From positions 1-32,157 of the IMG/VR virus record IMGVR_UViG_3300035698_007401: 32,157 bases of DNA; one strand, given 5' to 3'. The notes beneath the pieces are model-generated. The model saw nothing but the letters and a program-made list of their open reading frames with translations, searched no databases and was not told the origin of the DNA. Shown here piece by piece: positions 13,884 to 28,564 of the stretch. This DNA comes from a virus. Made by a program: the position numbers and the translations under genes. Within the stretch, counting starts at the first letter, position 1; the number at the start of each line of letters is the position of its first letter.

Positions 13884-14007
13884 AAGAATGAGTTTTAATC
13901 TAGGAAAGAGCATTCTCTTATATAGAATGTATATCGGGTTCGAGTCCCTTTACTCCGTGGTCGGAGTTCTTTGAGAGTTTCATCAACTTCAAAAAACGAA
14001 ACTACCA
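13884..14007 (+). ncRNA. GAGARUGA pseudoknot RNA A, with tRNA-like insert
   Basis: S1 is AAG-AA-TGA (13884-13891) with TCA-A-CTT (13983-13989). S2 is AGTTTC (13976-13981) with GAAACT (13998-14003) after the linker CAAAAAAC. A and CCA follow, then ATTT. The loop holds a degenerate tRNA-Ile(TAT)-like fold (anticodon arm ATTCT-CTTATAT-AGAAT and a GGGTTCGAGTCCC T-arm). Confidence 0.65.
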
Positions 14008-14013
14008 ATTTAT

Positions 14014-14087
14014 AAACCATACACCTCTCCTTTAAGGTCTGGTACTGACCAGTCTGACGAACAGTACGACAGTGATGTGTGTGGTTT
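14014..14087 (+). ncRNA. three-way-junction RNA, copy 2
   Basis: Same architecture as copy 1: AAACCA/TGGTTT and ACAC/GTGT close the RNA, and GTACTG/CAGTAC replaces GCACTA/TAGTGC. The junction CTCTCCTTTAAGGTCTGG and the loop GTCTGACGAA are unchanged. The paired changes support the fold. Confidence 0.65.
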
Positions 14088-14093
14088 ACAGTA

Positions 14094-14210
14094 GAGAGTG
14101 ATATTAATATCCACCGTAAAGAGCAGGTTAAACTCCTGCGTATGCCGAACGCATACTAGTAAAACGATATTACGTACGGTAGCTTCATCAACTCTATAAA
14201 AAAGAAGCTA
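14094..14210 (+). ncRNA. GAGARUGA pseudoknot RNA B
   Basis: S1 GAG-AG-TGA (14094-14101) with TCA-A-CTC (14188-14194). S2 TAGCTTC (14180-14186) with GAAGCTA (14204-14210), 7 perfect pairs. The long loop has hairpins GCAGG-TTAAACT-CCTGC (T-arm-like) and GTATGC/GCATAC. Confidence 0.7.
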
Positions 14211-14232
14211 GAATTTTATTAACAAAAGAAAT

Positions 14233-14332
14233 GAGAGTGATTTTTAGTTATGCGGGGTTCAATTCCCCAAGGGACTATAATACGTCCACTGGATGTTAGC
14301 TGTTTCGTCAACTCGTTAAAAAAAAGAAACTA
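14233..14332 (+). ncRNA. GAGARUGA pseudoknot RNA C
   Basis: S1 GAG-AG-TGA (14233-14240) with TCAACTC (14308-14314). S2 GTTTC (14302-14306) with GAAAC (14326-14330) after an A-rich linker. The loop carries a T-arm-like GGGG-TTCAATT-CCCC and a GGAC/GTCC hairpin. Confidence 0.65.
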
Positions 14333-14339
14333 CAATTTT

Positions 14340-14415
14340 GAGAATGATCTTTGGCTTACGTTGGTTTTTACCCAATACACAGTCGTTCCTATCAACTCGT
14401 TAACAAAAATGGAAC
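14340..14415 (+). ncRNA. GAGARUGA pseudoknot RNA D
   Basis: S1 GAG-AA-TGA (14340-14347) with TCAACTC (14392-14398). S2 GTTCC (14385-14389) with GGAAC (14411-14415), linker GTTAACAAAAAT. A separate hairpin AGAGTC/GACTCT follows at 14419-14438. Confidence 0.7.
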
Positions 14416-14448
14416 TGTAGAGTCTGTGCACGGACTCTTCGCTTTAAT

Positions 14449-14530
14449 ATACGGATAGATTAAACTGCTATGGCTGTGGGCTTGCCTCCAAAACAAGTTT
14501 CAAGGGGTTCGATTCCTCATTCGTATGCCA
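14449..14530 (+). tRNA. tRNA-Trp(CCA)
   Basis: Acceptor ATACGGA/TTCGTAT, anticodon loop CTCCAAA (CCA at 14488-14490), T-arm with TTCG loop, encoded CCA. The D-arm is atypical, so the exact 5' fold is uncertain. Confidence 0.75.
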
Positions 14531-14539
14531 ATTTTTATT

Positions 14540-14617
14540 GCACGTTTAGTCAAGCGATCTAAGACACCTCTTTTACACGGAGGCATTTCACAGGTTTGAA
14601 TCCTGTAACGTGTACCA
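14540..14617 (+). tRNA. tRNA-Val(TAC)
   Basis: Acceptor GCACGTT/AACGTGT, anticodon arm CCTCT-TTTACAC-GGAGG, T-arm ACAGG-TTTGAAT-CCTGT, encoded CCA. The D-loop is short of the usual GG. Confidence 0.85.
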
Positions 14618-14626
14618 TTTCATATT

Positions 14627-14703
14627 GCCTTCGTAGCTTAGTGGCTCAAAGCGTCTGACTCATATTCAGAAGACCGTTGGTTCGAATCCAACCGTTGGTA
14701 CCA
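14627..14703 (+). tRNA. tRNA-Met/Ile2(CAT), first CAT copy
   Basis: Anticodon arm TCTGA-CTCATAT-TCAGA, T-arm GTTGG-TTCGAAT-CCAAC, encoded CCA. Acceptor GCCTTCG/CGTTGGT has two T-T mismatches. Whether it is elongator Met or a lysidine-modified Ile tRNA cannot be read here. Confidence 0.85.
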
Positions 14704-14710
14704 ATTTTAT

Positions 14711-14772
14711 GAGAGTGACTATTGCTCCCTAGGCGGTTTGTCAACTCGTTAACAAAAATATGGGGGGCACCA
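14711..14772 (+). ncRNA. GAGARUGA pseudoknot RNA E, CCA end
   Basis: S1 GAG-AG-TGA (14711-14718) with TCAACTC (14741-14747). S2 TGCTCCC (14723-14729) with GGGGGCA (14763-14769). CCA (14770-14772) follows directly, then ATTT as after tRNAs. Confidence 0.7.
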
Positions 14773-14791
14773 ATTTAAAAAAAGGATTAGT

Positions 14792-14977
14792 ATGAAATGG
14801 AAATCAACTAGAAGAAATTATCACAGCGATGAAGCCCCTCACAACGTTCGATGGATCATTCATGAAGAAGATTCAATAAAAGGTATATGCGAATGCTATG
14901 ATGAGGAGTCTGCTGAGAAAATTAAAGATGCTTTGAATAATTTAGAGAGTGATTATGACGGTTTATCAACTCTATAA
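14792..14977 (+). CDS. small hypothetical protein
   Basis: A 61-residue protein (MKWKSTRRNYHSDEAPH...) with SD AAGGA. A W-I-I-H-E-E strand and an E-E-S-A-E-K-I-K-D-A-L helix suggest a small folded domain of unknown function. Its last ten codons and stop overlap pseudoknot RNA F, so the RNA element also serves as coding sequence. Confidence 0.55.
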   Translation: MKWKSTRRNYHSDEAPHNVRWIIHEEDSIKGICECYDEESAEKIKDALNNLESDYDGLSTL

Positions 14978-14993
14978 CAAAAATCCGTCACCA
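14945..14993 (+). ncRNA. GAGARUGA pseudoknot RNA F, minimal 49-nt copy with CCA end
   Basis: The shortest and clearest copy. S1 GAG-AG-TGA (14945-14952) with TCA-A-CTC (14966-14972). S2 TGACGG (14956-14961) with CCGTCA (14985-14990), linker TATAACAAAAAT. CCA at 14991-14993 abuts S2, then ATTTATG. It overlaps the end of the 61-residue ORF. Confidence 0.8.
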
Positions 14994-14999
14994 ATTTAT

Positions 15000-15089
15000 G
15001 GAAGTGTACTCAAATGGTAAAGAGGAGAGTTTGCTAAACTTTTAGACCTGTCAAAGGGCACATGGGTTCGAACCCCATTACTTCCGCCA
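15000..15089 (+). tRNA. tRNA-Ser(GCT)
   Basis: Acceptor GGAAGTG/TACTTCC, anticodon arm AGAGT-TTGCTAA-ACTTT, long variable arm, T-arm ATGGG-TTCGAAC-CCCAT, discriminator G and encoded CCA. Confidence 0.9.
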
Positions 15090-15096
15090 TTTTAAA

Positions 15097-15202
15097 GATG
15101 AATAAGGTATTACAAAGGGTTAATAGTTATTGGCATTACAACCCATGGTCAGGTGATCTTGGGGACAAAAACTAAAAATAAACAAAATCCTTATTCATCC
15201 CA
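15097..15202 (+). ncRNA. tRNA-like RNA with 11-bp acceptor-like stem and CCA
   Basis: GATGAATAAGG (15097-15107) pairs perfectly with CCTTATTCATC (15189-15199), followed by CCA and a T run. Inside, GGGTT/AACCC and GGTC/GATC helices are possible, but there is no cloverleaf. It lies between tRNA-Ser and the next tRNA-like RNA. Confidence 0.55.
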
Positions 15203-15206
15203 ATTT

Positions 15207-15328
15207 TTGAAGCGATCCATATAGAGGTCTTGGAGCTTGGCTGACTATTCATTCTAGGGAGTTCGAAACCCCTTTTATTGAATATGGCGTGAAGGGGTGC
15301 AAACTCATAAGTCAGATAGACGTTTCAA
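15207..15328 (+). ncRNA. structured RNA with tRNA T-arm-like segment
   Basis: TTGAAGCG (15207-15214) pairs with CGTTTCAA (15321-15328). Inside are CCATAT/ATATGG, CTGACT/AGTCAG and a T-arm-like GTTCGAAAC flanked by GGG/CCC. A T run follows, so it may also terminate or pause transcription. It is not a recognisable tRNA. Confidence 0.45.
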
Positions 15329-15336
15329 TTTTTTAT

Positions 15337-15411
15337 CAGTGTGTAGTTCAGAGGCAGAACGCTAGTTTTGGGAACTAGAGGCCGGGATTTCGACATTCCC
15401 CACACTGACCA
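15337..15411 (+). tRNA. tRNA-Pro(TGG)
   Basis: Acceptor CAGTGTG/CACACTG, D-stem GTTC/GAAC, anticodon arm CTAGT-TTTGGGA-ACTAG, discriminator A, encoded CCA. Confidence 0.9.
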
Positions 15412-15429
15412 TTTAAAGAAAGGAATAAT

Positions 15430-15834
15430 ATGAAAGATACATGGACTGATAATAGTAAAGTTGTAAGCAGACTTCTGGATGTATACGAAAAACATGGTAA
15501 CATTATTGTTGCTACTGACTTCGATGACACCGTATTTGGATATACCGAAGCTGACAGCGTACATGATAAAGCGATTGAACTCTTGCAGAGATGCAGTAAA
15601 TTGGGACTTCCCATCACTGTGCAGACTTGCAGTCGTACTGATCGATTCGATTATATCACAGAGTTTTTGGCAGACCGTAATATTGAAATATTAGGGATCA
15701 ACACTCAACCTGAAGGAATTCCATATGGTGGAACTGGTAAATCGTACTACAACATCATTCTAGATGATCGAGCAGGATTGGGACAAGCGATTGACATCCT
15801 TGAAGAGTTTCTTGACTTTATAGAAAATAAATAA
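15430..15834 (+). CDS. HAD-superfamily hydrolase
   Basis: A 134-residue protein. Motif I is ATDFDDTVF with nucleophile D30 and acid/base D32. A C-S-R-T-D segment fits motif II and ILDDRAG (D112, D113) fits motif IV, so it is a compact HAD phosphatase-like enzyme without a large cap. The substrate is unknown. In a tRNA array an RNA-end or nucleotide phosphatase is conceivable, but this is inference. SD AAAGGA. It stands alone between tRNA-Pro and an HNH gene. Confidence 0.7.
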   Translation: MKDTWTDNSKVVSRLLDVYEKHGNIIVATDFDDTVFGYTEADSVHDKAIELLQRCSKLGLPITVQTCSRTDRFDYITEFLADRNIEILGINTQPEGIPYGGTGKSYYNIILDDRAGLGQAIDILEEFLDFIENK

Positions 15835-15850
15835 TTTAAGAAAAAGTAAA

Positions 15851-15906
15851 ATATTCGAACCATTTAGACTGTGATTATTGTAAATAGTTATAGGAGGTTC
15901 GAATAT
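15851..15906 (+). promoter_or_regulatory. hairpin enclosing late-like promoter before HNH gene
   Basis: ATATTCGAACC (15851-15861) and GGTTCGAATAT (15896-15906) are a perfect 11-bp inverted repeat that covers part of the SD AGGAGG and the start codon. The motif TAAATAGTTATAGGAG (15881-15896) is in the loop. Read-through RNA would hide the start; RNA begun at the motif would lack the left arm. Confidence 0.6.
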
Positions 15907-16522
15907 GAGCAAATGTGAGAAGTGTGGAACAGAAAATGATGGATCGTATGGTTCTGGTAGATTTTGTGGTAGAGCTTGTGCAAATTCTAGAAGTTTAGAT
16001 CATAAAAAAATATACAGTGAAACCAAAACCATTAAATGTAGCAAGTGTAAGATTAAGTTTGAGGGGCATAAAGCATTACATGTCGGTGCGATGTGTGAAT
16101 CTTGTAAGGACGAACAACATTCATATAAGTGTGCCAAGTGTGGCGTTGACTTCAACACTCGTTACGTGTTTAGAGAGGGTAGGCTCATTCGTTGTGATTC
16201 CTGCAAACGAGTGGTAATACACCACAGTGACTATATGAGTCTAGAGTCACTATTACAGTTATCTAAAAGAACAATTACTAAGATACTAAATCGTGCGAAT
16301 GTTGGATGTTCTATATGTGGGTGGAGTAAATCAACATGCGATATCCATCACATTATTCCCAGAAAGGATAATGGGAGTAATGATCATGATAATTTAATTG
16401 TGGTATGTCCGAACTGCCACAGGGAAATTCACTCCAATAAAGAATATGATTATGAATTTTTAAAGGAACGCAGTTTATTAAAAACGCTCAGTAATTGGCG
16501 TGATTTTTATAATGTAAAATAA
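15905..16522 (+). CDS. HNH homing endonuclease
   Basis: A 205-residue protein. Several CxxC knuckles (CEKC, CSKC, CESC, CAKC, CDSC) precede the nuclease domain CSICGWSKSTCDIHHIIPRKDNGSNDHDNLIVVCPNC, split here as CSIC (about 135), the IHH catalytic centre (about 147-149) and CPNC-H. This is the HNH motif with structural zinc. It is probably a free-standing homing endonuclease inserted between tRNA genes. Its start is inside the 15851-15906 hairpin. Confidence 0.85.
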   Translation: MSKCEKCGTENDGSYGSGRFCGRACANSRSLDHKKIYSETKTIKCSKCKIKFEGHKALHVGAMCESCKDEQHSYKCAKCGVDFNTRYVFREGRLIRCDSCKRVVIHHSDYMSLESLLQLSKRTITKILNRANVGCSICGWSKSTCDIHHIIPRKDNGSNDHDNLIVVCPNCHREIHSNKEYDYEFLKERSLLKTLSNWRDFYNVK

Positions 16523-16529
16523 TTTAAAT

Positions 16530-16619
16530 GGCAGTTGCCCCGTCCATCTGACTGTAAATCAGACCCTATTTGAAAGGACGGTAGTTAGGTTCGTGGAGCG
16601 TTACCATCAACTGTCACCA
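16530..16619 (+). tRNA. tRNA-Tyr(GTA), D-arm-less and remodelled
   Basis: Acceptor GGCAGTT/AACTGTC, anticodon arm TCTGA-CTGTAAA-TCAGA, discriminator A, encoded CCA. There is no D-arm. Instead CCGTCC (16541-16546) pairs with GGACGG enclosing the anticodon arm, and the T-arm is replaced by GGTA/TACC around a large loop. It is either a remodelled tRNA or a tRNA mimic. Confidence 0.6.
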
Positions 16620-16622
16620 TTT

Positions 16623-16713
16623 TTAAACATATCGAAAAAGGGATTCCAGTAGCGTATATAATCCAGTATCCCCGAAATACCCTTAAGATCGCTGTTAGAT
16701 ATACGATGTTTAA
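16623..16713 (+). ncRNA. structured RNA between tRNA-Tyr and a CDS
   Basis: TTAAACAT-(AT)-CG pairs with CGATGTTTAA as a 10-bp helix with a 2-nt bulge. An inner GGGAT/ATCCC (16640-16644, 16668-16672) closes a hairpin. There is no ORF and no cloverleaf. Confidence 0.4.
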
Positions 16714-16733
16714 TTAATAAAGAAAGGATCATC

Positions 16734-16961
16734 ATGGATAAATGGTACGATTATAAGTTGACAGTTGCCACCAAGAATGATACAACGCATTCACAAATAT
16801 ACACAGCCATAAATAATGATGATGCAATTGACAGAGCGTCTATAAAGCGTTTAAAGATGGAATATAAATATGGCGAGATAGTCGCCTATCAAATAGAGTT
16901 AATTAAGACTAAAGAGATAATAACTTCTCAGGTCTATTTGACAATAATGGATTTAGTTTAA
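16734..16961 (+). CDS. small hypothetical protein
   Basis: A 75-residue protein with SD AAAGGAT. It has an alternating beta pattern (WYDYKLTVATKND, AYQIELIKTKEI) around one helix, so it is a small alpha/beta fold. No family is recognised. Confidence 0.5.
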   Translation: MDKWYDYKLTVATKNDTTHSQIYTAINNDDAIDRASIKRLKMEYKYGEIVAYQIELIKTKEIITSQVYLTIMDLV

Positions 16962-17009
16962 CGAAAGATTATATGTGTCACTTTGACATATAACAAAAGA
17001 GGGTATATT

Positions 17010-17273
17010 ATGGAGAACGAAGATAAGGCATATGCGATTGATGAAATAGCCAAACTGGTTGATAAGTCAATTCATTTAACAAGTACACAGAAATCAATTA
17101 TCAATACATTTATCAATGCATCTTTTCAAGCAATATATAATGCATCTATGAATGAAAATGGCCCAAAGGAATTCATTACAGATCGAAAATGTGAATGCGA
17201 TATTTGGGAATTCTTCTATAATCAAACGATCCAATCAATCAATATTGCAAACTTTATAGACGATACCATTTAA
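17010..17273 (+). CDS. small hypothetical protein
   Basis: An 87-residue, mostly helical acidic protein. ATG at 17010 (MENEDKAYAIDEI) follows AGAGGG at suitable distance; an upstream TTG would add nine residues and has no SD. Function unknown. Confidence 0.5.
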   Translation: MENEDKAYAIDEIAKLVDKSIHLTSTQKSIINTFINASFQAIYNASMNENGPKEFITDRKCECDIWEFFYNQTIQSINIANFIDDTI

Positions 17274-17290
17274 ATTAAGAATTTGAGTAA

Positions 17291-17399
17291 ATCAGAGAGT
17301 TAGATGACGGGCTTTAAGCTTCGAAAACTTGAGGACATAAGGGGTGGGTTCGATTCCCGCCAATGGATTAGGACGATCCGACACACCGCTAACCTGATA
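17291..17399 (+). ncRNA. tRNA-Ser-like RNA in a closed helix, no CCA
   Basis: ATCAG...TTAG at the 5' side pairs with CTAA...CTGAT at the 3' side. Inside is a good T-arm (GTGGG-TTCGATT-CCCGC) and an anticodon-like arm TTAAGC-TTCGAAA-ACTTGA (CGA). The normal acceptor and CCA are missing, so it is a tRNA-derived domain or pseudo-tRNA. Confidence 0.45.
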
Positions 17400-17415
17400 T
17401 ATCTCAATAACTTAC

Positions 17416-17477
17416 AAGAGTGATCATACCGAGCTTAACTTTGCGAGGGTTCCCGATCAACTTTAAAAACAAGGGAA
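17416..17477 (+). ncRNA. GAGARUGA pseudoknot RNA G
   Basis: S1 AAG-AG-TGA (17416-17423) with TCA-A-CTT (17457-17463), a compensated variant of GAG/CTC. S2 TTCCC (17450-17454) with GGGAA (17473-17477). Confidence 0.65.
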
Positions 17478-17520
17478 AATTGTAAATATAGATGGGTTTG
17501 ATGAACCAATTAGATCGTGA

Positions 17521-17583
17521 TTGGTAGGAAGCTATTAAAATAATGTCGGTTATACTCGAATGGCTCTGTCAGCCTCCTACCAA
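17521..17583 (+). ncRNA. 63-nt RNA with perfect 9-bp closing helix
   Basis: TTGGTAGGA (17521-17529) pairs with TCCTACCAA (17575-17583). A GGCT/AGCC hairpin lies near the 3' side. There is no ORF and no tRNA features. A further hairpin ACTGACG/CGTCAGT follows near 17619-17641. Confidence 0.4.
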
Positions 17584-17675
17584 GGGCTTGGCTTTGGGAA
17601 TGATATAATAAATGATTTACTGACGAGTTCATATGCGTCAGTACTAAAAAAAATAAAGACGTGTTAATTTATGAA

Positions 17676-17717
17676 AGGTATATTAATTGTTTTGCATCAA
17701 CTTCAAAAACAGCAAAA
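17676..17717 (+). ncRNA. GAGARUGA pseudoknot RNA H (degenerate)
   Basis: TCAACTT (17697-17703), an A-rich linker and S2 TTTTGC (17690-17695) with GCAAAA (17712-17717) are present. The S1 5' strand is only GAAAG-like near 17673-17678, so this copy is weak. Confidence 0.4.
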
Positions 17718-17725
17718 AATAATTT

Positions 17726-17792
17726 GAGAATGACTTTAATAACCGAATATGATTGCGGCTGGTTTCGTCAACTCGTTAAAAAAAAGAAACAG
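17726..17792 (+). ncRNA. GAGARUGA pseudoknot RNA I
   Basis: S1 GAG-AA-TGA (17726-17733) with TCAACTC (17768-17774). S2 GTTTC (17762-17766) with GAAAC (17786-17790), extended by CTG/CAG across a bulge. Confidence 0.7.
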
Positions 17793-17799
17793 TTAATTT

Positions 17800-17867
17800 G
17801 AGAGTGATCTGGTTGCACAAACCGTGAATCTAATCCATCTACATCAACTCGCTAAAAAACAGTAGAT
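17800..17867 (+). ncRNA. GAGARUGA pseudoknot RNA J
   Basis: S1 GAG-AG-TGA (17800-17807) with TCAACTC (17844-17850). S2 ATCTAC (17837-17842) with GTAGAT (17862-17867), linker GCTAAAAAACA. Confidence 0.75.
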
Positions 17868-17876
17868 AATAGGTCG

Positions 17877-17937
17877 GAGAGTGATCGTTCTCGGTTATCG
17901 AGACTTGTGATCAACTCTAGAAACGAAAAAACACTAA
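17877..17937 (+). ncRNA. GAGARUGA pseudoknot RNA K
   Basis: S1 GAG-AG-TGA (17877-17884) with TCAACTC (17911-17917). S2 is weaker: TTGTG (17905-17909) with CACTAA (17932-17937), one bulged base. The loop has a CTCG/CGAG hairpin. Confidence 0.55.
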
Positions 17938-17943
17938 ATAAAC

Positions 17944-18016
17944 AAGAGTGACTTTTGTTCTTAGGTTGCAGTATATGTACACTTCGGATCTTTTCGTCAA
18001 CTGTAAAAACAGAAAA
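17944..18016 (+). ncRNA. GAGARUGA pseudoknot RNA L
   Basis: S1 AAG-AG-TGA (17944-17951) with TCA-A-CTGT (17997-18004), one bulge. S2 TTTTC (17991-17995) with GAAAA (18012-18016). It ends ACAATTT, like the tRNA junctions. Confidence 0.55.
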
Positions 18017-18027
18017 AACAATTTAAT

Positions 18028-18124
18028 CGAGGGATGGTGTAAAAGGCAAGGCTATAGCTACTTGTTGAAATGCACACTGGGGTTCCAACTCCAGAGATAG
18101 GGTGAGATGCCCCGAACTCGGCCA
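18028..18124 (+). tRNA. tRNA-like RNA with extra hairpin before the acceptor 3' strand
   Basis: CGAG/CTCG acceptor remnant, anticodon-like stem GCAAG/CTTGT with a 10-nt loop, T-arm-like CTGG-GGTTCCAACT-CCAG. An additional GGG-TGAGATG-CCC hairpin precedes CGAACTCG-G-CCA. The anticodon is not assignable. Probably a remodelled or decayed tRNA. Confidence 0.45.
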
Positions 18125-18132
18125 GTTTAATT

Positions 18133-18218
18133 GCACTTATGGTGGAATGGTAGACACGCAACGTTGAGGTCGTTGTGCCAATTACGGTGTGCAGGTTCGA
18201 TTCCTGTTAGGTGCACCA
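18133..18218 (+). tRNA. tRNA-Leu(GAG)
   Basis: Acceptor GCACTTA/TAGGTGC, anticodon arm CAACG-TTGAGGT-CGTTG, long variable arm, T-arm GCAGG-TTCGATT-CCTGT, encoded CCA. Confidence 0.9.
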
Positions 18219-18235
18219 ACTTAAAGGAGAATATT

Positions 18236-18415: not shown

Positions 18416-18416
18416 T

Positions 18417-18495: not shown

Positions 18496-18513
18496 ATTTA
18501 ATAAGGATAAAAT

Positions 18514-18765: not shown

Positions 18766-18773
18766 GGAGAAAT

Positions 18774-19014: not shown

Positions 19015-19020
19015 AATTTA

Positions 19021-19797: not shown

Positions 19798-20732
19798 ATA
19801 CAATCTTCGGATTGTTATAGTTTAAGGGATGCTTGAGTTCCTTAGTTCTCCTTCGGGAGTCCTAAAAGATAAAGCCAGCAATGGTTCGAAAGGGATATGG
19901 CTCCTACGCCACCCGCTATCGTAAGGTAGTCACTTAAGCAAGCACAGTTGTCTAGTTTTCAGGGGTTGAACCTTGGAGATAAAACGACCTTTCACATCAA
20001 ATGAATACCGAGGGTAACTCTGTAGGGATTCTACTAACACGTAGCGGTGAGTTCGGGTGAGCAAATGAGAGTAGTTATGATCAACGAAGTGTAGATATCT
20101 TGTCCGACCCGCAAAGGAGGGCTTCTTATCAGATTAAAATAGGTTCTGGACAATGCTTAACCAAAGTACGGAATCGTGAAAGTCGGCAAAGTAGCTCGCA
20201 AGGTGAATGCATTTAGCTGTCTGGTATTTCGTAGCCCGAGAGGGGTACGAAGCAAGTAATGACCGCACAGCTTGGTAGGTTCTAATAATTAGCTCAATTG
20301 GTAGAGCATCTGTATTTGAACAGGTTGTTAGAGGTTCAATTCCTCTATTATACACAAAACGCAAAGACGGTCATCACTAGACACGGAAAGTGGCTTAATA
20401 CCCCTCTTAATGAAGGGGGTGGAAGAGACTCGCAAGGTCGATTCCTATTTGGTTCAGCGTGTTCATTGAGTTTAGCGACTCTTCACTACTCGCAAGGTAG
20501 ATGACGCACAAAGGAACAGAGTATGTGTTTAGGATAGCGGTGTTGCTTCCGCTTTATAAAAGAGCAGTCATGATTCTGACAGAACCGCCTAGTTTAATTA
20601 CGGAATGGGGTTGTGTGGAAGTAGGGAGAACCATCGGGGTCGCACCTGATTGGATAATGCCCAGAAGAAGAATCAAGTGAAGGCGTACTTCTCAGCCTGA
20701 ATAACTTACCCTCCTTCGTGGGGGTACCAATT
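19798..20732 (+). ncRNA. ~930-nt ornate structured RNA with embedded tRNA (GOLLD/ROOL-class candidate)
   Basis: There is no convincing ORF over 930 bases, but helices are dense: ACAATC-TTCG-GATTGT at the 5' end, CTCC-TTCG-GGAG, CTATC-GTAA-GGTAG, TTCGTA...CCC-GAGA-GGGG...TACGAA, CCCCTC/AAGGGG, and several CTCGCAAGG segments giving GCAA loops. The 3' end is TACCC...GGGTA-CCA. A tRNA-like domain is embedded at 20287-20353. Size, tetraloops, tRNA neighbourhood and embedded tRNA recall the GOLLD and ROOL RNAs of phages. I cannot verify family membership. Confidence 0.6.
20287..20353 (+). tRNA. tRNA-like domain inside the large RNA
   Basis: D-arm GCTC-AATTGGTA-GAGC, anticodon-like stem TCTGT/ACAGG with an abnormal loop, T-arm AGAGG-TTCAATT-CCTCT and a weak acceptor AATAAT/ATTAT. 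There is no CCA. It is probably a structural part of the large RNA and not a working tRNA. Confidence 0.6.
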
Positions 20733-20734: not shown

Positions 20735-20806
20735 GAGAGTGACCTTGTTTATGGGGATTTATGTTTGGTCAACTCATTACAAAAACAGAAACTAAAATCC
20801 CCTCCA
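20735..20806 (+). ncRNA. GAGARUGA pseudoknot RNA M, CCA end
   Basis: S1 GAG-AG-TGA (20735-20742) with TCAACTC (20769-20775). S2 GGGGATTT (20753-20760) with AAATCCCC (20795-20802), 8 perfect pairs. T and CCA follow, then ATTTA: a discriminator-plus-CCA layout like a tRNA. Confidence 0.8.
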
Positions 20807-20887: not shown

Positions 20888-20945
20888 GAGAATGACGGGA
20901 ACCCCCAAGATCAGTCAACTCATAAAAAAACTAGATGGGGTTCCA
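20888..20945 (+). ncRNA. GAGARUGA pseudoknot RNA N, CCA end
   Basis: S1 GAG-AA-TGA (20888-20895) with TCAACTC (20915-20921). S2 GGAACCCC (20898-20905) with GGGGTTCC (20937-20944). CCA occupies 20943-20945, so the last two pairs compete with a free CCA end. Confidence 0.75.
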
Positions 20946-21235: not shown

Positions 21236-21305
21236 GAGAATGACGAAAACTACTAAAACATAGCCTCAACAGGTCAACTCATTAACAAAAACTGCAAGAG
21301 GACAC
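21236..21305 (+). ncRNA. GAGARUGA pseudoknot RNA O
   Basis: S1 GAG-AA-TGA (21236-21243) with TCAACTC (21274-21280). S2 CCTC...CAG with CTG...GAGG (21292-21301), interrupted by an internal loop. Ends ACACAATTT. Confidence 0.6.
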
Positions 21306-23167: not shown

Positions 23168-23218
23168 AGGATGATTCCAGCAACAAAAATACACTTCTAA
23201 TGTAAAAACGTTCATCCT
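23168..23218 (+). ncRNA. hairpin RNA with 7-bp closing stem
   Basis: AGGATGA (23168-23174) pairs with TCATCCT (23212-23218), followed by GTTATTTTT. The loop of 37 bases is A-rich. It could be a small RNA or a weak terminator inside the array. Confidence 0.35.
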
Positions 23219-23232
23219 GTTATTTTTAGACT

Positions 23233-23702: not shown

Positions 23703-23707
23703 TTAAT

Positions 23708-23781: not shown

Positions 23782-23796
23782 CCTTTAGTAGAAACA

Positions 23797-23821: not shown

Positions 23822-23825
23822 GATT

Positions 23826-24523: not shown

Positions 24524-24537
24524 GATGGTGGTTAATT

Positions 24538-24960
24538 ATGAGAACAATAAAATGTAGAATATGTGAAAATGAGAAATGTATTAAAGCATTTTATAAACTA
24601 AAAGAGGGTCGAGGAGATATTTGTAGAACCTGTTATAGAGTAATATATGACGAACCCGCCATTAATGGCAAATATCGGAATAAACCTCGAATGACGTATT
24701 TACGTAAATTAGCAAGAAAATATAACATGACGGTTGCAGAACTAGATGATATAAGGTACAGCAAACAAAAGAATTGTTGTAAAATATGTGATGCATCATT
24801 TGACAATATGGATAATAAGAATATTCATATTGACCACGACCACACAACAGATAAGTTTAGAGGGTTTTTATGTTGCAACTGTAATCGATTACTGGGAGAT
24901 GCCAAGGATGACCAAGAAATTCTTGAAAGTGCTACAAGGTATCTTGATGATACTAGATAA
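24538..24960 (+). CDS. endonuclease VII-like nuclease
   Basis: A 140-residue protein of the recombination endonuclease VII family. An N-terminal CRIC...CRTC zinc knuckle and the YNMTVAELDDI region lead to CCKICD, the catalytic IHIDHDHTT, RGFLCCNCNRLLGDAKDD and a C-terminal ATRYLDD helix. T4 gp49 of this family resolves branched DNA during packaging. This short copy in tandem with a GIY-YIG gene may instead act as a homing nuclease. The SD is weak (GGTGG). Confidence 0.85.
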   Translation: MRTIKCRICENEKCIKAFYKLKEGRGDICRTCYRVIYDEPAINGKYRNKPRMTYLRKLARKYNMTVAELDDIRYSKQKNCCKICDASFDNMDNKNIHIDHDHTTDKFRGFLCCNCNRLLGDAKDDQEILESATRYLDDTR

Positions 24961-24968
24961 TTTCGACG

Positions 24969-25046
24969 GTGTTTGTAGCTCAATTTGGTTAGAGCGTCTG
25001 CTTGTGGTGCAGAATGTTGCGGGTTCGAGTCCCGTCTTACACCCCA
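24969..25046 (+). tRNA. tRNA-His(GTG)
   Basis: Anticodon arm TCTGC-TTGTGGT-GCAGA, D-arm GCTC/GAGC, T-arm GCGGG-TTCGAGT-CCCGT, discriminator C and encoded CCA. G at 24968 can pair with C73 as the histidine-specific G-1. Confidence 0.9.
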
Positions 25047-25051
25047 AATTT

Positions 25052-25158
25052 AAGCAATGATACGATTGGATTTGCTTGGCGGTTACTTACCCGTGATGTG
25101 TTGGCAGACTGTACACCTGTAACAGCAAGAGAGACACTAAGGAGAGACTTGACCAATT
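25052..25158 (+). ncRNA. unclassified RNA segment ending in CCA
   Basis: The stretch starts with an AAGCAA/TTGCTT hairpin and ends CTTGACCA-ATTT like a tRNA junction. It has no cloverleaf and no ORF. Confidence 0.3.
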
Positions 25159-25162
25159 TAAG

Positions 25163-25266
25163 CGGGTAACGGGCAACCGTAGAGAGTCCTCAAATCATGG
25201 ACTTAATATTGTCCCAAGGTAAGCGGTTGGGAATCCCAGAGACCTTGTAAAAAACATCGTACCAAT
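25163..25266 (+). ncRNA. tRNA-like structured RNA ending in CCA
   Basis: An AGTCC-TCAAATCAT-GGACT arm is followed by CAAGGT...ACCTTG enclosing a TGGG/CCCA hairpin, and the end reads GTACCA-ATTT. The acceptor is not evident. Confidence 0.35.
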
Positions 25267-25273
25267 TTACATT

Positions 25274-25349
25274 GCCCGTATAATTCAACTGGTAGAAAGT
25301 CTGCCTTTTAAGCAGAAAGTTGGGGGTTCGATCCCCTCTACGGGTACCA
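25274..25349 (+). tRNA. tRNA-Lys(TTT)
   Basis: Acceptor GCCCGTA/TACGGGT, anticodon arm TCTGC-CTTTTAA-GCAGA, T-arm GGGGG-TTCGATC-CCCTC, encoded CCA. Confidence 0.9.
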
Positions 25350-25367
25350 ACTTAAGGAAAATTAATT

Positions 25368-25634
25368 ATGATTATTACGGAAACAATGCGCCTGCCCCGC
25401 GCCCCGACTACGGCGGATCATATAAGATACGATTATGATATCATTGCTGAAAGGATCATAACCAAATTAGCCAATCTTAAAATACTAGAAGTTAGCGAGT
25501 TCCACATGTACATAGATGCGGATGATTTCTGGCCGAGGGTGAAGGTGACGATCACATTCGATGATAGTATATACGTCGATGTCAAGACAAATAAACAAAC
25601 TATAATCGATCAGATTATAATGAATTCATTTTAG
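25368..25634 (+). CDS. small hypothetical protein with a broken paralogue
   Basis: An 88-residue acidic alpha/beta protein (MIITETMRLPRAPTTADH...). A paralogue at 23331-23611 carries a frameshift, which supports this being a real coding family. The SD is AAGGAA. Function unknown. Confidence 0.55.
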   Translation: MIITETMRLPRAPTTADHIRYDYDIIAERIITKLANLKILEVSEFHMYIDADDFWPRVKVTITFDDSIYVDVKTNKQTIIDQIIMNSF

Positions 25635-25643
25635 GAGATCCAC

Positions 25644-25672
25644 GTCGGTGATCGTTACCCGATGGGGTACCA
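25644..25672 (+). tRNA. orphan tRNA 3' end
   Basis: TCGG-TGATCGTTA-CCCGA followed by TGGGGTACCA looks like a T-arm and acceptor 3' strand with CCA. There is no 5' half. It resembles the ATCGTTA T-loop of tRNA-Thr at 26456. Confidence 0.45.
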
Positions 25673-25681
25673 TTTTTTTTT
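25656..25681 (+). terminator. possible rho-independent terminator
   Basis: TACCC-GATG-GGGTA, two C, A and nine T. The stem is short but the T run is long. It overlaps the orphan tRNA 3' end and precedes a new late-like motif. Confidence 0.5.
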
Positions 25682-25702
25682 ACATTTTAAAGTTACTTTT
25701 CA

Positions 25703-25716
25703 CTAAGTATTTATAG
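25703..25716 (+). promoter_or_regulatory. late-promoter-like motif before tRNA-Gln
   Basis: CTAAGTATTTATAG ends 4 bases before the first base of tRNA-Gln, after a T-rich terminator-like site. It could restart the array late in infection. Confidence 0.45.
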
Positions 25717-25720
25717 AAAC

Positions 25721-25794
25721 TGCCCTGTAGTGTAACGGCAACACAGGAGGATTTGACCCTCCAACTCTCAGTTCGATTCTGGGCGGGGCATCCA
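25721..25794 (+). tRNA. tRNA-Gln(TTG)
   Basis: Acceptor TGCCCTG/CGGGGCA, anticodon arm GGAGG-ATTTGAC-CCTCC, T-loop TTCGATT, discriminator T, encoded CCA. Confidence 0.9.
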
Positions 25795-25811
25795 TTTAGA
25801 AAGGAATTATT

Positions 25812-25928
25812 ATGAATAAATTATGGCAGTGGTTCAAGAACCAACCAGAAGACTTAAAGGCATTGATGTTTATTGATGCGTTTTGCTGGATAGGTGTCAT
25901 AGTAATGACGATTTTACATTTTATTTAA
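25812..25928 (+). CDS. small membrane protein
   Basis: A 38-residue ORF (MNKLWQWFKNQPEDL...) with SD AAAGGA. The C-terminal ~20 residues (FIDAFCWIGVIVMTILHFI) form one membrane segment. Function unknown. Its stop is two bases before tRNA-Ala. Confidence 0.5.
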   Translation: MNKLWQWFKNQPEDLKALMFIDAFCWIGVIVMTILHFI

Positions 25929-25930
25929 AC

Positions 25931-26007
25931 GGGGATGAAGCTTATTAGGTAAAGCACCGCACTTGCAATGCGGATTTTTGAGGGTTCGAATCCCTTCGTT
26001 TCCACCA
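25931..26007 (+). tRNA. tRNA-Ala(TGC)
   Basis: Acceptor GGGGATG/CGTTTCC, anticodon arm CCGCA-CTTGCAA-TGCGG, T-arm GAGGG-TTCGAAT-CCCTT, encoded CCA. Confidence 0.9.
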
Positions 26008-26014
26008 ATTTAAT

Positions 26015-26167
26015 GCACAGGTAGCGATTTGGTAAAGCATCCATGACGGTATGTTAACTTGTCGAGAGGAAGTATGTTGGCTCATAACTAACGAAAAGCT
26101 CGATTAATAACCGTAAAGCCCGACACATGTGGAATCAAGTAGGTTCGACTCCTACCCTCGTGCACCA
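26015..26167 (+). tRNA. tRNA(CAT) with a greatly extended anticodon arm
   Basis: A 153-nt tRNA-like gene. Acceptor core GCAC/GTGC, D-arm GCG...GC, T-arm GTAGG-TTCGACT-CCTAC, encoded CCA. The anticodon arm GTTGG-CTCATAA-CTAAC (CAT at 26083-26085) is carried on nested helices CATG/CATG (26042-26045, 26126-26129), ACGGT/ACCGT (26046-26050, 26110-26114) and CGAG/CTCG (26063-26066, 26099-26102), separated by internal loops. Confidence 0.6.
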
Positions 26168-26171
26168 ATTT
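26142..26171 (+). repeat. 30-bp direct repeat, copy 1
   Basis: From GGTTCGACTCC to CACCAATTT this is identical to 26342-26371, exactly 200 bp away. It covers the T-loop, acceptor 3' strand and junction of two different tRNA genes. Confidence 0.9.
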
Positions 26172-26174
26172 AAT

Positions 26175-26281
26175 GCCGTGTAGGGACTAAAGGTAAACCG
26201 CTATACTCCTCTGATGAACCAAGTGATCATTAAGTTCGTTATGTTGTAGAGATACTGGTTCGAGTCCAGTCTGAGGCTCCA
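26175..26281 (+). tRNA. tRNA-like RNA with insertion, chimeric acceptor
   Basis: T-arm ACTGG-TTCGAGT-CCAGT and CTGAGGC-T-CCA are normal and match the 3' end type of tRNA-Thr at 26456. The 5' strand GCCGTGT pairs poorly. The anticodon region is enlarged (GAAC/GTTC inside CTCT/AGAG), with no clear anticodon. Length 107 nt. Confidence 0.5.
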
Positions 26282-26291
26282 AAATTTTAAT

Positions 26292-26367
26292 GCACCTGAA
26301 ACATTTAGGGATGATGCAGACCCTTGTAAAGTCTGGAACTCGGTTCGACTCCTACCCTCGTGCACCA
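26292..26367 (+). tRNA. tRNA-Thr(TGT), chimeric copy
   Basis: Anticodon stem CAGAC/GTCTG, loop centre CTTGTAA. The last 26 bases are identical to the end of the tRNA at 26015, and as a result the T-stem (CTCGG/CCTAC) and half the acceptor no longer pair. It looks like a gene-conversion product and may not be functional. Confidence 0.6.
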
Positions 26368-26371
26368 ATTT
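26342..26371 (+). repeat. 30-bp direct repeat, copy 2
   Basis: Identical to 26142-26171. It forms the mismatching 3' end of the chimeric tRNA-Thr. Confidence 0.9.
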
Positions 26372-26384
26372 TATGATTAGTTAT

Positions 26385-26445
26385 TTGTATCTCTTGCCAT
26401 TCAGTGATGCATTCAATGCTAACATATCGTACAAGGGTGGCACCA
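26385..26445 (+). ncRNA. second type of pseudoknot RNA with CCA end
   Basis: TTGTA (26385-26389), TGCCA (26395-26399), TACAA (26430-26434) and TGGCA (26438-26442) are arranged A-B-A'-B', an H-type pseudoknot, and are followed by CCA-ATTT. The GAGARUGA consensus is absent. A GCATT-CA-AATGC hairpin lies inside. Confidence 0.45.
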
Positions 26446-26455
26446 ATTTAATAAC

Positions 26456-26531
26456 GCCTCTGAAGCATTATATGGATGATGTCGGCTTTTGTAAAGCTGG
26501 GAATTCGGATCGTTACCGAACTGAGGCTCCA
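26456..26531 (+). tRNA. tRNA-Thr(TGT), intact copy
   Basis: Acceptor GCCTCTG/CTGAGGC (one mismatch), anticodon stem TCGGC/GCTGG around CTTTTGTAAA, T-arm TTCGG-ATCGTTA-CCGAA, discriminator T, encoded CCA. Confidence 0.85.
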
Positions 26532-26535
26532 TTTT

Positions 26536-26600
26536 GACAGTGATCAAGTTGCATACTCCCCTGTATACGGAAGTCCGATCAAGTCATTAAAAAACTGGGA
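26536..26600 (+). ncRNA. GAGARUGA pseudoknot RNA P
   Basis: S1 GAC-AG-TGA (26536-26543) with TCA-A-GTC (26579-26585): both sides changed relative to GAG/CTC, which supports pairing. S2 TCCC (26557-26560) with GGGA (26597-26600), weak. The following ~100 bases up to the GIY-YIG gene have only short hairpins (CAGG/CCTG, CTCTGA/TCAGAG). Confidence 0.6.
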
Positions 26601-26705
26601 TGGGTAGGAGATAGCTAGGGAGGGAAGGCAGGCTGATACCCTGTCAATCGCTCTGAAGCCCGAAGATAAGTAGATCAGAGACACTAATTTAATTAAGGAT
26701 TAACG

Positions 26706-27215
26706 ATGGATACGCATTACATTATATATAAAATAACCAATACCGTTAATAATATGATTTATGTTGGAAAACATAAGACCAAAAATCTTAATGATGGTTA
26801 TATGGGATCGGGTAAAGATATTAAAAAGGCGATACAAACATTTGGAGTTGATAAATTCGAAAAGGAAGTTCTATATGATTTCGATCATGATGCAACGATG
26901 TGTGACATGGAACGCTCAATAGTCACCGAAACGTTCATTAAGAGATTAGACACATATAATGTGAAAAAGGGCGAACGGGTGTTTAATGATGATACTGTTT
27001 TAGAATTTAACGAACGAGTTAAAATGGGTCTACAACACCGCAAGCACGTTAAACGCCTACCATTAGGCCGAAAGGTGGGAGCGAGGTTAGAGGGCACGAC
27101 TGATAAGATTACACAAGCTAAGAGGCTTAGAAAATCGGGCTTATCATTTGGTAAGATTGGTGAGGTTATGGGCATCTGTCGGCAAAGAGCACATCAACTT
27201 GTTAATATGAAATAA
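26706..27215 (+). CDS. GIY-YIG homing endonuclease with C-terminal helix-turn-helix
   Basis: A 169-residue protein. The catalytic start HYIIYKITNTVNNMIYVGKH and GYMGSGKDIKKAIQTFG parallel the GIY-YIG protein at 23864, including the MERSIV segment. The C-terminus differs: a resolvase-like helix-turn-helix (ITQAKRLRKSGLSFGKIGEVMGICRQRAHQ, cited in part) supplies DNA binding. SD AAGGAT. It lacks the upstream hairpin seen at the other copy. A separate homing event in the array. Confidence 0.85.
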   Translation: MDTHYIIYKITNTVNNMIYVGKHKTKNLNDGYMGSGKDIKKAIQTFGVDKFEKEVLYDFDHDATMCDMERSIVTETFIKRLDTYNVKKGERVFNDDTVLEFNERVKMGLQHRKHVKRLPLGRKVGARLEGTTDKITQAKRLRKSGLSFGKIGEVMGICRQRAHQLVNMK

Positions 27216-27221
27216 TTTTAC

Positions 27222-27295
27222 GCACTTATAATACAATGGTAGTATCCGTGGTTGCCAATCATGAAATGCCGGTTCGATCCCGACTAGGTGCACCA
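27222..27295 (+). tRNA. tRNA-Gly(GCC)
   Basis: Acceptor GCACTTA/TAGGTGC, anticodon arm CGTGG-TTGCCAA-TCATG, T-loop TTCGATC, encoded CCA. Confidence 0.85.
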
Positions 27296-27313
27296 AATCT
27301 TGCATGTCAAACA

Positions 27314-27370
27314 GAGAGTGTTAGCAGGGGATGCGTCCGAACAACTCTATAAAAACAGGAGATTCCCCCA
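27314..27370 (+). ncRNA. GAGARUGA pseudoknot RNA T, CCA end, compensated inner S1
   Basis: S1 GAG-AG-TGT (27314-27321) with ACA-A-CTC (27341-27347): the inner UGA/UCA becomes UGU/ACA. S2 GGGGA (27327-27331) with TCCCC (27364-27368), linker TATAAAAAC. CCA at 27368-27370. Confidence 0.7.
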
Positions 27371-27377
27371 TTTTATT

Positions 27378-27454
27378 GCACACGTAGCTCAGTTGGACAG
27401 AGTCATAGATTTCTACTCTATTGGTCGGGGGTTCGAATCCCTCCGTGTGTACCA
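27378..27454 (+). tRNA. tRNA-Arg(TCT)
   Basis: Acceptor GCACACG/CGTGTGT, anticodon arm ATAGA-TTTCTAC-TCTAT, T-arm GGGGG-TTCGAAT-CCCTC, encoded CCA. Confidence 0.9.
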
Positions 27455-27509
27455 ACTAGGAGAACCAATGAAACTAATACAGCTAGAAAGTGGATTAAAA
27501 TAATTTAAT

Positions 27510-27584
27510 AGGGTCGTCGAATAACGGTTAATTCGGAAGATTGTCAATCTTTCAACGTGGGTTCAACTCCCATCGATCCTGCCA
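27510..27584 (+). tRNA. tRNA-Asp(GTC)
   Basis: Acceptor AGGGTCG/CGATCCT, anticodon arm GAAGA-TTGTCAA-TCTTT, T-arm GTGGG-TTCAACT-CCCAT, discriminator G, encoded CCA. Confidence 0.9.
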
Positions 27585-27602
27585 TTTTAACAAGGAGAAG
27601 TT

Positions 27603-27785
27603 ATGAGAAACAAAGACCCAAAGAAGAAGTGTTCACTATGTGGAAGAACAAACACAGAATTCAGAGTAATCGATGTTACCCCTTCGGGTTGGTGGCGTAG
27701 ATTCTTCACTTGCGGAAAGATTAGAATTATGATCTGCCAAAGTTGTATATCTAAAATGATGCGTAAACTTGTGGGGATGGACTAA
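27603..27785 (+). CDS. small zinc-binding protein
   Basis: A 60-residue basic protein with CSLCG near residue 10 and CQSC near residue 47, a likely zinc site. It has SD AAGGAG. Its stop overlaps the next start (TAATG), so the pair is translationally coupled. Function unknown. Confidence 0.6.
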   Translation: MRNKDPKKKCSLCGRTNTEFRVIDVTPSGWWRRFFTCGKIRIMICQSCISKMMRKLVGMD

Positions 27786-28261
27786 TGAACGCAACAGACC
27801 CTTATGCCACAATAATGGGCATTAATGAATCAGAATTGAATTTGGCGGAAAAATGGCGGATCGTTATCCATAGTGTAGATCATGGTGCCCATAGATATTT
27901 TTCACCTAAAAGAGATGGAATTGCCACGTTATGTGAAAATATACACCGTCATGTTAAATATGGTCAATGTCCAAGACATGACACGATTACTATTGATCTC
28001 GCTACGCCCGAAGAGTATATGATCAACTCATTAAATGTATTAATGAATGCTTGGGATATGTTGGAGTCTAGGGGTATTGAAGTCCGAACCTGCTCTAATC
28101 CAGTTGGTGTCCACGAACTCGAAGATGGTACCAAATCAACATTCGAGGTTACATATTGCGATCTAGACAAGTTTAACCTTGGATTATTTCACGGAGATCA
28201 AGTAGCTTATCTCTATAATCTTGATTATGATCAGAAGAAGATAGGCTATGGTAAAATTTAA
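27785..28261 (+). CDS. hypothetical protein
   Basis: A 158-residue alpha/beta protein. It has H and C residues (VDHGAHRYF, GQCPRHD) and an acidic C-terminal part, but I recognise no family. It is coupled to the small zinc protein and ends 3 bases before tRNA-Glu, so stop and tRNA processing are adjacent. Confidence 0.6.
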   Translation: MNATDPYATIMGINESELNLAEKWRIVIHSVDHGAHRYFSPKRDGIATLCENIHRHVKYGQCPRHDTITIDLATPEEYMINSLNVLMNAWDMLESRGIEVRTCSNPVGVHELEDGTKSTFEVTYCDLDKFNLGLFHGDQVAYLYNLDYDQKKIGYGKI

Positions 28262-28264
28262 ATT

Positions 28265-28340
28265 GCCCCGTTAGGCTAATCGGCTAAACCCCTAGCTTTT
28301 CATGCTAGTATTGCCCGTTCGAATCGGGTACGGGGTACCA
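28265..28340 (+). tRNA. tRNA-Glu(TTC), copy 2
   Basis: Acceptor GCCCCGT/ACGGGGT, anticodon arm CTAGC-TTTTCAT-GCTAG, T-arm GCCCG-TTCGAAT-CGGGT, encoded CCA. Differs widely from the copy at 21042. Confidence 0.9.
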
Positions 28341-28343
28341 TTT

Positions 28344-28412
28344 GAGAGTGATTTTATTGGGGAGTGATGATACTAGAACCTTTGCTAATCAACTCGTTAA
28401 CAAACAAAGCAA
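28344..28412 (+). ncRNA. GAGARUGA pseudoknot RNA Q
   Basis: S1 GAG-AG-TGA (28344-28351) with TCAACTC (28389-28395). S2 TTGCT (28382-28386) with AGCAA (28408-28412), linker GTTAACAAACA. Confidence 0.7.
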
Positions 28413-28433
28413 GAAGACGAATAGAGATCAAAT

Positions 28434-28485
28434 GAGAATGACCGTTCTGTCAGTGTTTCAGTCAACTCACCAAAAAATGAAATAC
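28434..28485 (+). ncRNA. GAGARUGA pseudoknot RNA R
   Basis: S1 GAG-AA-TGA (28434-28441) with TCAACTC (28462-28468). S2 TTTCA (28456-28460) with TGAAA (28478-28482), extended by TGT/ACA. Confidence 0.7.
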
Positions 28486-28494
28486 AAGAATTTC

Positions 28495-28564
28495 GAGAGT
28501 GATATTGGGGGGCTGAGAAAGTCTATCAACTCGTTAACAAAAAATATTTAAATGCCCTCCACCA
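28495..28564 (+). ncRNA. GAGARUGA pseudoknot RNA S, CCA end
   Basis: S1 GAG-AG-TGA (28495-28502) with TCAACTC (28526-28532). S2 GGGGGGC (28507-28513) with GCCCTCC (28554-28560), 7 pairs with one G-U. A and CCA follow (28561-28564), then ATTTT. Confidence 0.75.

Follow-up and report, generated by a model that had tools for sequence, protein, structure and literature searches.

The window analysed here, designated W, is a 32,157-base IMG/VR virus record (IMGVR_UViG_3300035698_007401) and represents an incomplete phage fragment with a tRNA array, among whose genes lie multiple copies of a compact pseudoknot (PK) element. ARAGORN assigns 32 tRNAs to W, all on the plus strand, and the array also holds many homing endonucleases. 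Twenty PK copies were counted in W, in agreement with the first-pass annotation of the sequence, which had proposed about 20; the copy at 17596 is included with an uncertain 5' strand. Two further IMG/VR contigs, V1 (3300035698_006217, 47.1 kb) and V2 (3300025133_000155, 51.4 kb), are syntenic with W over one block, in which the proteins are mostly 50-72% identical, and contain 13 and 7 copies, respectively, bringing the total to about 40. V2 encodes a tail sheath and a large terminase, which identifies the lineage as a myovirus.

Pseudoknot copies in the tRNA array

All PK copies of the three contigs lie on the tRNA strand, and a loose consensus scan of W recovered the listed copies on the plus strand and 0 on the minus strand (Table 1). 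The unit is about 46-120 nucleotides (nt) long. Stem 1 (P1) follows the motif N3-A-R-UGN-Y / R-NCA-A-N3', and its loop pairs with the 3' tail as stem 2. The consensus of the first-pass annotation is thus retained for stem 1 and for the loop-tail pairing, with two corrections: stem 1 gains a Y-R pair, and stem 2 often comprises two helices, P2 beside stem 1 and P3 reaching the 3' boundary. In the folded molecule, P1 would be stacked on P2, the 5' strand of which directly adjoins P1, and would be crossed by an A-rich strand of about 7-12 nt; P3, which is often present, would be separated from an AUUU boundary by about 4 nt. Loop lengths range from 13 to 93 nt, a few copies having an extra domain of 80-90 nt inside the loop. 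The copies are mostly followed by tRNAs or by further copies, and runs of three or four without an intervening tRNA occur at 17726-18016 and 28344-28561.

Table 1. Positions of the PK copies (W), of the tRNA nucleotidyltransferase open reading frame (ORF) of W and of the GGAT-box RNAs
Feature	Position	Strand	Remarks
PK copy A	13884..14003	+	P1 AAGAATGA/TCAACTT; P2 AGTTTC/GAAACT; 3' ACCA-ATTT; 91-nt loop with tRNA-like arms
PK copy B	14094..14210	+	P2 TAGCTTC/GAAGCTA; 86-nt loop, multi-arm domain (z=-2.2)
PK copy C	14233..14330	+	P2 GTTTC/GAAAC
PK copy D	14340..14415	+	P2 GTTCC/GGAAC; orthologue V1 L035rc:3041
PK copy E	14711..14769	+	P3 TGCTCCC(T)/(G)GGGGGCA, then CCA-ATTT
PK copy F	14945..14990	+	TGACGG/CCGTCA, then CCA-ATTT
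PK copy G	17416..17477	+	P1 AAG/CTT; P2 TTCCC/GGGAA; orthologue V1 10354 (TAG/CTA)
PK copy H	17596..17717	+	P2 TTTTGC/GCAAAA; P1 5' strand uncertain
PK copy I	17726..17792	+	P2 GTTTC/GAAAC
PK copy J	17800..17867	+	P2 ATCTAC/GTAGAT
PK copy K	17877..17934	+	Weak stem 2, GTG/CAC
PK copy L	17944..18016	+	P1 AAGAGTGAC/GTCAACTG, one mismatch; P2 TTTTC/GAAAA
PK copy M	20735..20802	+	P3 GGGGATTT/AAATCCCC; P2 GTTT/AAAC; TCCA-ATTT; directly 3' of GOLLD
PK copy N	20888..20944	+	P3 GGAACCCC/GGGGTTCC
PK copy O	21236..21300	+	Short stem 2: CAG/CTG, CCTC/GAGG
PK copy P	26536..26601	+	P1 GAC/GTC; weak stem 2 GTCC/GGAT
PK copy Q	27314..27368	+	Inner pair TGT/ACA; P3 GGGGA/TCCCC
PK copy R	28344..28413	+	P2 TTTGCT/AGCAAG
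PK copy S	28434..28485	+	P2 GTGTTTCA/TGAAATAC, 8 bp
PK copy T	28495..28561	+	P3 TGGGGGGC/GCCCTCCA, then CCA-ATTT
ORF with tRNA nucleotidyltransferase domains (CCA-adding enzyme/PolyA_pol)	8588..10786	+	Upstream of array
GGAT-box, L035 (rc)	3790, 4003, 5189, 6326, 7494, 9117, 10926, 14932
GGAT-box, L038	8182, 8424, 10996, 13311
GGAT-box, L190	29773, 34930, 37562, 39077
GGAT-box, L189	11667
GGAT-box, L188	12948, 13573, 14302, 16544

Covariation of stem 1 and the loop-tail helices

P1 is paired in 98.2% of cells across 16 distinct versions, and double-sided changes occur in five of its seven pairs, a result matched by 0-1 of 500 shuffles. Its covariation score is 0.433 as compared to 0.147 (sd 0.032) after shuffling and at most 0.165 after sliding. 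As the original search demanded outer pairing, the test of the outer pairs was rerun with looser anchors, consisting only of ARTGA/TCAA and the A-rich linker, with no pairing required outside them. All three outer pairs were formed in 28 of the 39 rerun matches, against a shuffle mean of 16.6 and a maximum of 23 in 20,000 shuffles. The inner Y-R pair, which was never a selection criterion, is paired in 38 of 39, and all ten copies with C at the Y site have G opposite. The stem 1 variants AAG/CTT, GAC/GTC and TGT/ACA listed in the first-pass annotation were all recovered. Conservation of the letters is highest in the P1 internal loop (A-R versus A), at the UG/CA pairs and in the A-rich strand.

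Stem 2 was assessed by comparing the pairing of each loop with its own tail to that with tails swapped from other copies. The duplex energy favours the own tails with z=-7.2 (39 copies), and does so within each phage (W z=-3.9, p=5e-5; V1 -4.7; V2 -2.7). For P2, the helix abutting P1, the same comparison, made on 40 copies, gives z=7.4 (W 5.1, with 0/100,000 swaps reaching it; V1 4.2; V2 3.2) and z=6.7 after removal of similar copies. The P2 signal is lost when the loop anchor is shifted by 5 nt, while the z=4.8 seen at a shift of 8 nt comes from the second helix. This second helix, P3, is formed by a more internal part of the loop and the last part of the tail (z=6.6), and commonly terminates at (N)(C)CA-ATTT. 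The loop-tail helix measures at least 5 bp in 17 of the 20 W copies and is weak in those at 17877, 21236 and 26536; together with the advantage of own over swapped tails, this bears out the earlier statement that stem 2 pairs in nearly all copies. The four helices which that statement had quoted, in copies F, J, M and N, were verified at 14956/14985, 17837/17862, 20753/20795 and 20898/20937, respectively.

Orthologous copies display the same behaviour. The copy at W 14340 and that at V1 3041 are 81% identical over 113 nt, and differ by a compensatory change both in P1 (GAG/CTC in W, AAG/CTT in V1) and in P2 (GTTCC/GGAAC and ATTCC/GGAAT). P1 of W 17416 reads AAG/CTT where that of V1 10354 reads TAG/CTA, and the copies at W 20735 and V2 10832 retain P2 and P3 with different letters. 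Covariation thus supports both stem 1 and the loop-tail stem 2 of an H-type fold. Preservation of the pairing by matched mutations suggests that the approximately 40 copies are probably a real RNA gene family. The first-pass annotation had staked its proposal on covariation among further homologues; two homologous arrays have been found in which both stems covary strongly, which supports its interpretation.

The specificity of the element was examined with a full descriptor comprising Watson-Crick outer P1 pairs, the Y-R pair, the A-rich linker and P2. This descriptor matches 10 times in W, 10 in V1 and 5 in V2 (25 in total), whereas the antisense and reversed sequences of the three arrays contain 0 matches and 2.83 Mb of unrelated strands contain five. 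Chance matching is ruled out by the swapped-tail, antisense, reversed-sequence and unrelated-locus controls.

Array boundaries and possible roles of the copies

The tRNAs of the arrays sit between ATTT motifs, 63 of 88 having ATTT no more than 6 nt before their 5' end. The PK copies occupy slots of the same kind: ATTT lies within 6 nt upstream in 23 of 40 copies (random expectation 7%), and the last PK helix ends within 6 nt of the next ATTT in 24 of 36, the gap of typically 3-4 nt being equal to the length of the tRNA NCCA overhang. AUUU-type sites are typical substrates of RNase E, so that excision of the PK copies by the tRNA route can reasonably be inferred; copies and tRNAs alike would be released from one long transcript of the array by cuts at AUUU.

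The common view of phage tRNA arrays is that they consist of tRNAs serving translation or anti-defence. The PK copies add a non-tRNA RNA gene family that is comparable to the tRNAs in copy number and agrees with them in strand, slots and end geometry. The conserved P1 internal loop, UG/CA pairs and A-rich strand, combined with a stem 2 free in sequence, form the pattern expected for a recognised surface held by a clamp. The P1 internal loop and the A-rich strand may constitute the recognition element for one protein, whereas P2 and P3 may be a mere clamp for which any sequence suffices. Being multicopy and free in sequence, the family fits a ligand or decoy role better than a guide role, and simple tRNA spacers are disfavoured by the stretches in which three or four copies follow each other with no tRNA in between. 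The 20 copies of W might then act jointly as a ligand or decoy (sponge) for one protein, most plausibly a tRNA-processing protein or a tRNA-attacking nuclease; GOLLD and a YrlA-like RNA in the same arrays are other tRNA-linked RNAs consistent with this. The explanation as a whole, i.e. multicopy H-type PK RNA genes released from the array and acting as ligand or decoy, is put forward tentatively, with a confidence slightly short of even. It is doubtful that the RNAs, released like tRNAs in about 20 versions per phage, serve specifically to sequester a host protein that processes or attacks tRNAs, such that the sponge protects or completes the phage tRNA set. Confirmation of the copies as discrete RNAs would establish a new phage RNA class and provide a ready test of a decoy as opposed to a processing-device role for array RNAs.

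Several points weigh against the ligand or decoy explanation. The copies are treated as independent, and shared ancestry inflates the shuffle tests; the swapped-tail tests within each phage and the orthologue comparisons do not rest solely on this independence. All family counts come from the sequences of three incomplete metagenomic contigs of one lineage. To our knowledge, no protein that binds them has been described. No T-loop or anticodon is common to the family, and CCA precedes ATTT in 8 of 27 bounded copies, as compared to 59 of 69 tRNAs and 45 of 406 other sites, which makes tRNA mimicry weak.

The gene-like slots are also compatible with cis-acting processing or stability elements, which would shield ends or guide RNase cuts and have no function after release. 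The AUUU boundaries shared with the tRNAs, the retention of structure while sequence varies and the tolerance of loops of 13 to 93 nt agree with this alternative, as does the finding that RNase P cleaves H-type pseudoknots with a 3' RCCA (PMC12710915), which makes the mechanisms of this and other rival readings directly testable. However, the 20 copies do not pair one each with the roughly 32 tRNAs, most tRNAs of the array have no PK copy, three- and four-copy runs occur with no tRNA between their members, and the CCA end is missing in most copies; a purely cis-acting function is considered rather unlikely.

A stricter form of mimicry, in which the P1/P2(P3) stack imitates the acceptor/T-arm and RNase P, EF-Tu or the CCA-adding enzyme of the phage takes the 3' end as substrate, is regarded as improbable. 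It would explain the 3-4 nt overhang past the last helix and the modest enrichment of CCA and CA at bounded ends (p about 0.01); the tRNA nucleotidyltransferase-like ORF upstream of the array is relevant to it as a putative phage-encoded CCA-adding enzyme, and permuted tRNA mimics occur in the same arrays. Against it stand the minority of copies with CCA, the lack of a T-loop, the variable helix lengths and the absence of an Rfam tRNA-like-element match at any copy. The tRNA-like structures of TYMV-type plant viruses, which are RNase P substrates (PMC12710915), resemble the PK copies in their H-type pseudoknot, 3' terminal helix and short overhang. The copies share with them a terminal helix with an overhang of about 4 nt and differ in the missing 3' NCCA end (CCA being confined to a minority), in having no cloverleaf remainder and in being multicopy genes of a DNA phage.

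Turnover of the copies is fast, few being orthologous between the phages, and this would suit a selfish or mobile structured element spreading in tRNA arrays by a DNA hairpin or an RNA-mediated route, its structure serving mobility and not the benefit of host or phage. Tandem duplicates (14302-14350 versus 17762-17810) and the copy at 14945, which overlaps and replaces the 3' end of a small ORF (14792-14977), agree with such spread. Nevertheless, near-identical recent copies are limited to one tandem pair, all copies lie on one strand, no integrase or reverse transcriptase is linked to them, and the many homing endonucleases of the array could account for the turnover, leaving mobility a decidedly unlikely explanation as compared to the ligand or decoy role.

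Relation to described RNAs and other RNAs of the arrays

The PK RNA family is new, in that no relative was found in Rfam or elsewhere among the resources searched; the H-type fold itself is common. Rfam 15 gave no non-tRNA match at any W copy at gathering threshold or E<=1, focused scans of five copies returned only noise (E>2), and nothing exceeded threshold at the V1 and V2 copies. Among described RNAs, GOLLD/ROOL and T4 RNAs C/D come closest by position, and preQ1-I and the tRNA-like elements of plant viruses by fold; each of them differs from the PK copies in a defining feature that was tested. The first-pass annotation knew of no described family with this consensus, a view consistent with these scans and with the open-access literature, in which no description of the family was found. 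Exact-pattern scans of IMG/VR and about 85,000 bacterial and archaeal genomes gave, beyond W, V1 and V2, only scattered chance matches where checked, many of them sets of nearly identical loci that lack tRNA arrays or the predicted structure; such patterns specify most of P1 or of the linker, so that the scans may have overlooked divergent members. A 16-kb query from W has no near match among 50,697 GenBank phage records, BLAST against GenBank phages gave no significant match, two conserved W proteins have no near match at protein level in GenBank phages, and no IMG/VR relatives were found through the CCA-enzyme ORF of W. As regards attC-like recombination sites, the GTTAAC seen in some linkers does not agree with the R-box of attC, and most copies lack it.

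Phage tRNA islands are known to encode GOLLD and ROOL, structured non-coding RNAs whose function is unknown (PMC12286853). They are similar to the PK copies in position, and W itself holds one GOLLD; they differ in being hundreds of nt long and cage-forming, as compared to units of about 46-120 nt with one pseudoknot core and 20 copies per array. The GOLLD RNA of W, at 20214-20698, matches RF02032 over its full length with 129.5 bits, under the gathering score of 150, and has an embedded tRNA-like domain at 20283-20355; RF02032 matches are confined to this interval, with none at the PK copies. In T4, with which the first-pass annotation drew a parallel, rnaC and rnaD (stable RNAs of species 1 and 2) are small, are not tRNAs and lie next to the tRNA cluster. 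These are single-copy and lack the P1/A-linker/P2 motif, so that the comparison is only positional, and the PK descriptor found nothing in the T4 tRNA region, KVP40, Ci1, DLP_6 or Ahp1.

Type III antitoxin RNAs (ToxI) are repeated pseudoknot RNAs of phages or bacteria. They form near-identical tandem repeats beside a toxin gene, whereas the PK copies differ in stem 2 and loops; no toxin or Abi family was seen among the array ORFs in a partial Pfam/PADLOC scan of the incomplete contig, no toxin-directed search having been made. An ORF on the minus strand (W 7152-7658) matches the PADLOC candidate defence family PDC-M42C (E=5e-42) and phrog_1017.

Riboswitch-type cis regulators resembling preQ1-I share the compact H-type fold and an A-rich third loop that crosses stem 1, and one PK copy gives a sub-threshold PreQ1 match (11.4 bits, E=8.6). 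This score is far under the RF00522 gathering cut-off of 39, the conserved ligand pocket is absent, and the copies are flanked by tRNAs or by other copies and are not located in 5' untranslated regions; a riboswitch is hardly credible here.

A second covarying family, the GGAT-box RNAs, has the form 5' GGATNN...CAGCAA / ...N'N'ATCCTGNTATTT, bounded by AUUU motifs and with a closing stem that covaries. It occurs once in W (23169-23222) and about a dozen times in V1 and V2, with relatives in the arrays of DLP_6 and Ci1 and, by a looser match, KVP40. Some members carry a T-arm followed by a D-arm, as in a permuted tRNA. One matches YrlA (RF02553; E=5.8e-6 and 33.8 bits in a focused scan, under the gathering score of 69); this match, at L035 10258-10368, is the only one, and none was found at the PK copies. 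A DUF2828 + DUF7788 (vWA) 'RNA-binding protein' (phrog_850; L036 13964-15343, minus strand; L040 6936-8297, plus strand) is encoded just beyond the tRNA array in V1 and V2 and near tRNAs in KVP40, Ci1, DLP_6 and Ahp1; homologues are present in 681 GenBank phage records. The GGAT-box RNAs and this protein are candidates for phage Y RNAs and a Ro-like protein. AlphaFold models of two sequences of the protein (pLDDT 49) were too poor to confirm Ro60, and Foldseek supported the vWA half only, weakly.

The PK RNAs could themselves be unusual Y RNAs, i.e. ligands of the Ro-like protein, as V1 and V2 both encode it next to the array and tRNA mimics are among the partners of Ro60. The copies, although alike to Y RNA and YrlA as candidate tRNA-mimic non-coding RNAs of related arrays, have neither the YrlA T-arm/D-arm module nor a Y stem or other Y RNA motif, and the separate GGAT-box family fits YrlA instead. 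The idea is further weakened by KVP40, Ci1, DLP_6 and Ahp1, four GenBank phages that have the protein and tRNA arrays and no PK copies; with the protein unconfirmed as Ro60, it is very unlikely. A PTH2-like peptidyl-tRNA hydrolase ORF (Pfam PF01981; V2 L040 13605-13997, with a homologue in V1 L035) represents further tRNA-related gear of the lineage.

Candidates for additional structured RNAs lie elsewhere in the arrays. W 13781-13875 and 14004-14094 are paralogous candidates, 86% identical over 78 nt, of the form CTCTCCTTTAAGGTCTG...GTCTGACGAA...GACAGTGATG, whose outer and inner stems differ compensatorily; they have no Rfam match, and the core CTCCTTTAAGGTCTG does not occur in V1 or V2. Long non-coding stretches of the W array lie at 26016-26160, 26175-26285, 30625-30970, 25050-25270 and 13250-13700, several of which look like tRNAs interrupted by large insertions or like RNAs that enclose a tRNA. 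The hairpin GAGTCTGTGCACGGACTCTTYGC, at W 14410-14436 and V1 L035rc 3110-3136, is almost letter-conserved directly 3' of one orthologous PK copy. A conserved non-coding block 3' of the PK pair 17416/10354 (W 17490-17660, V1 L035rc 10405-10550) may be a further structured RNA.

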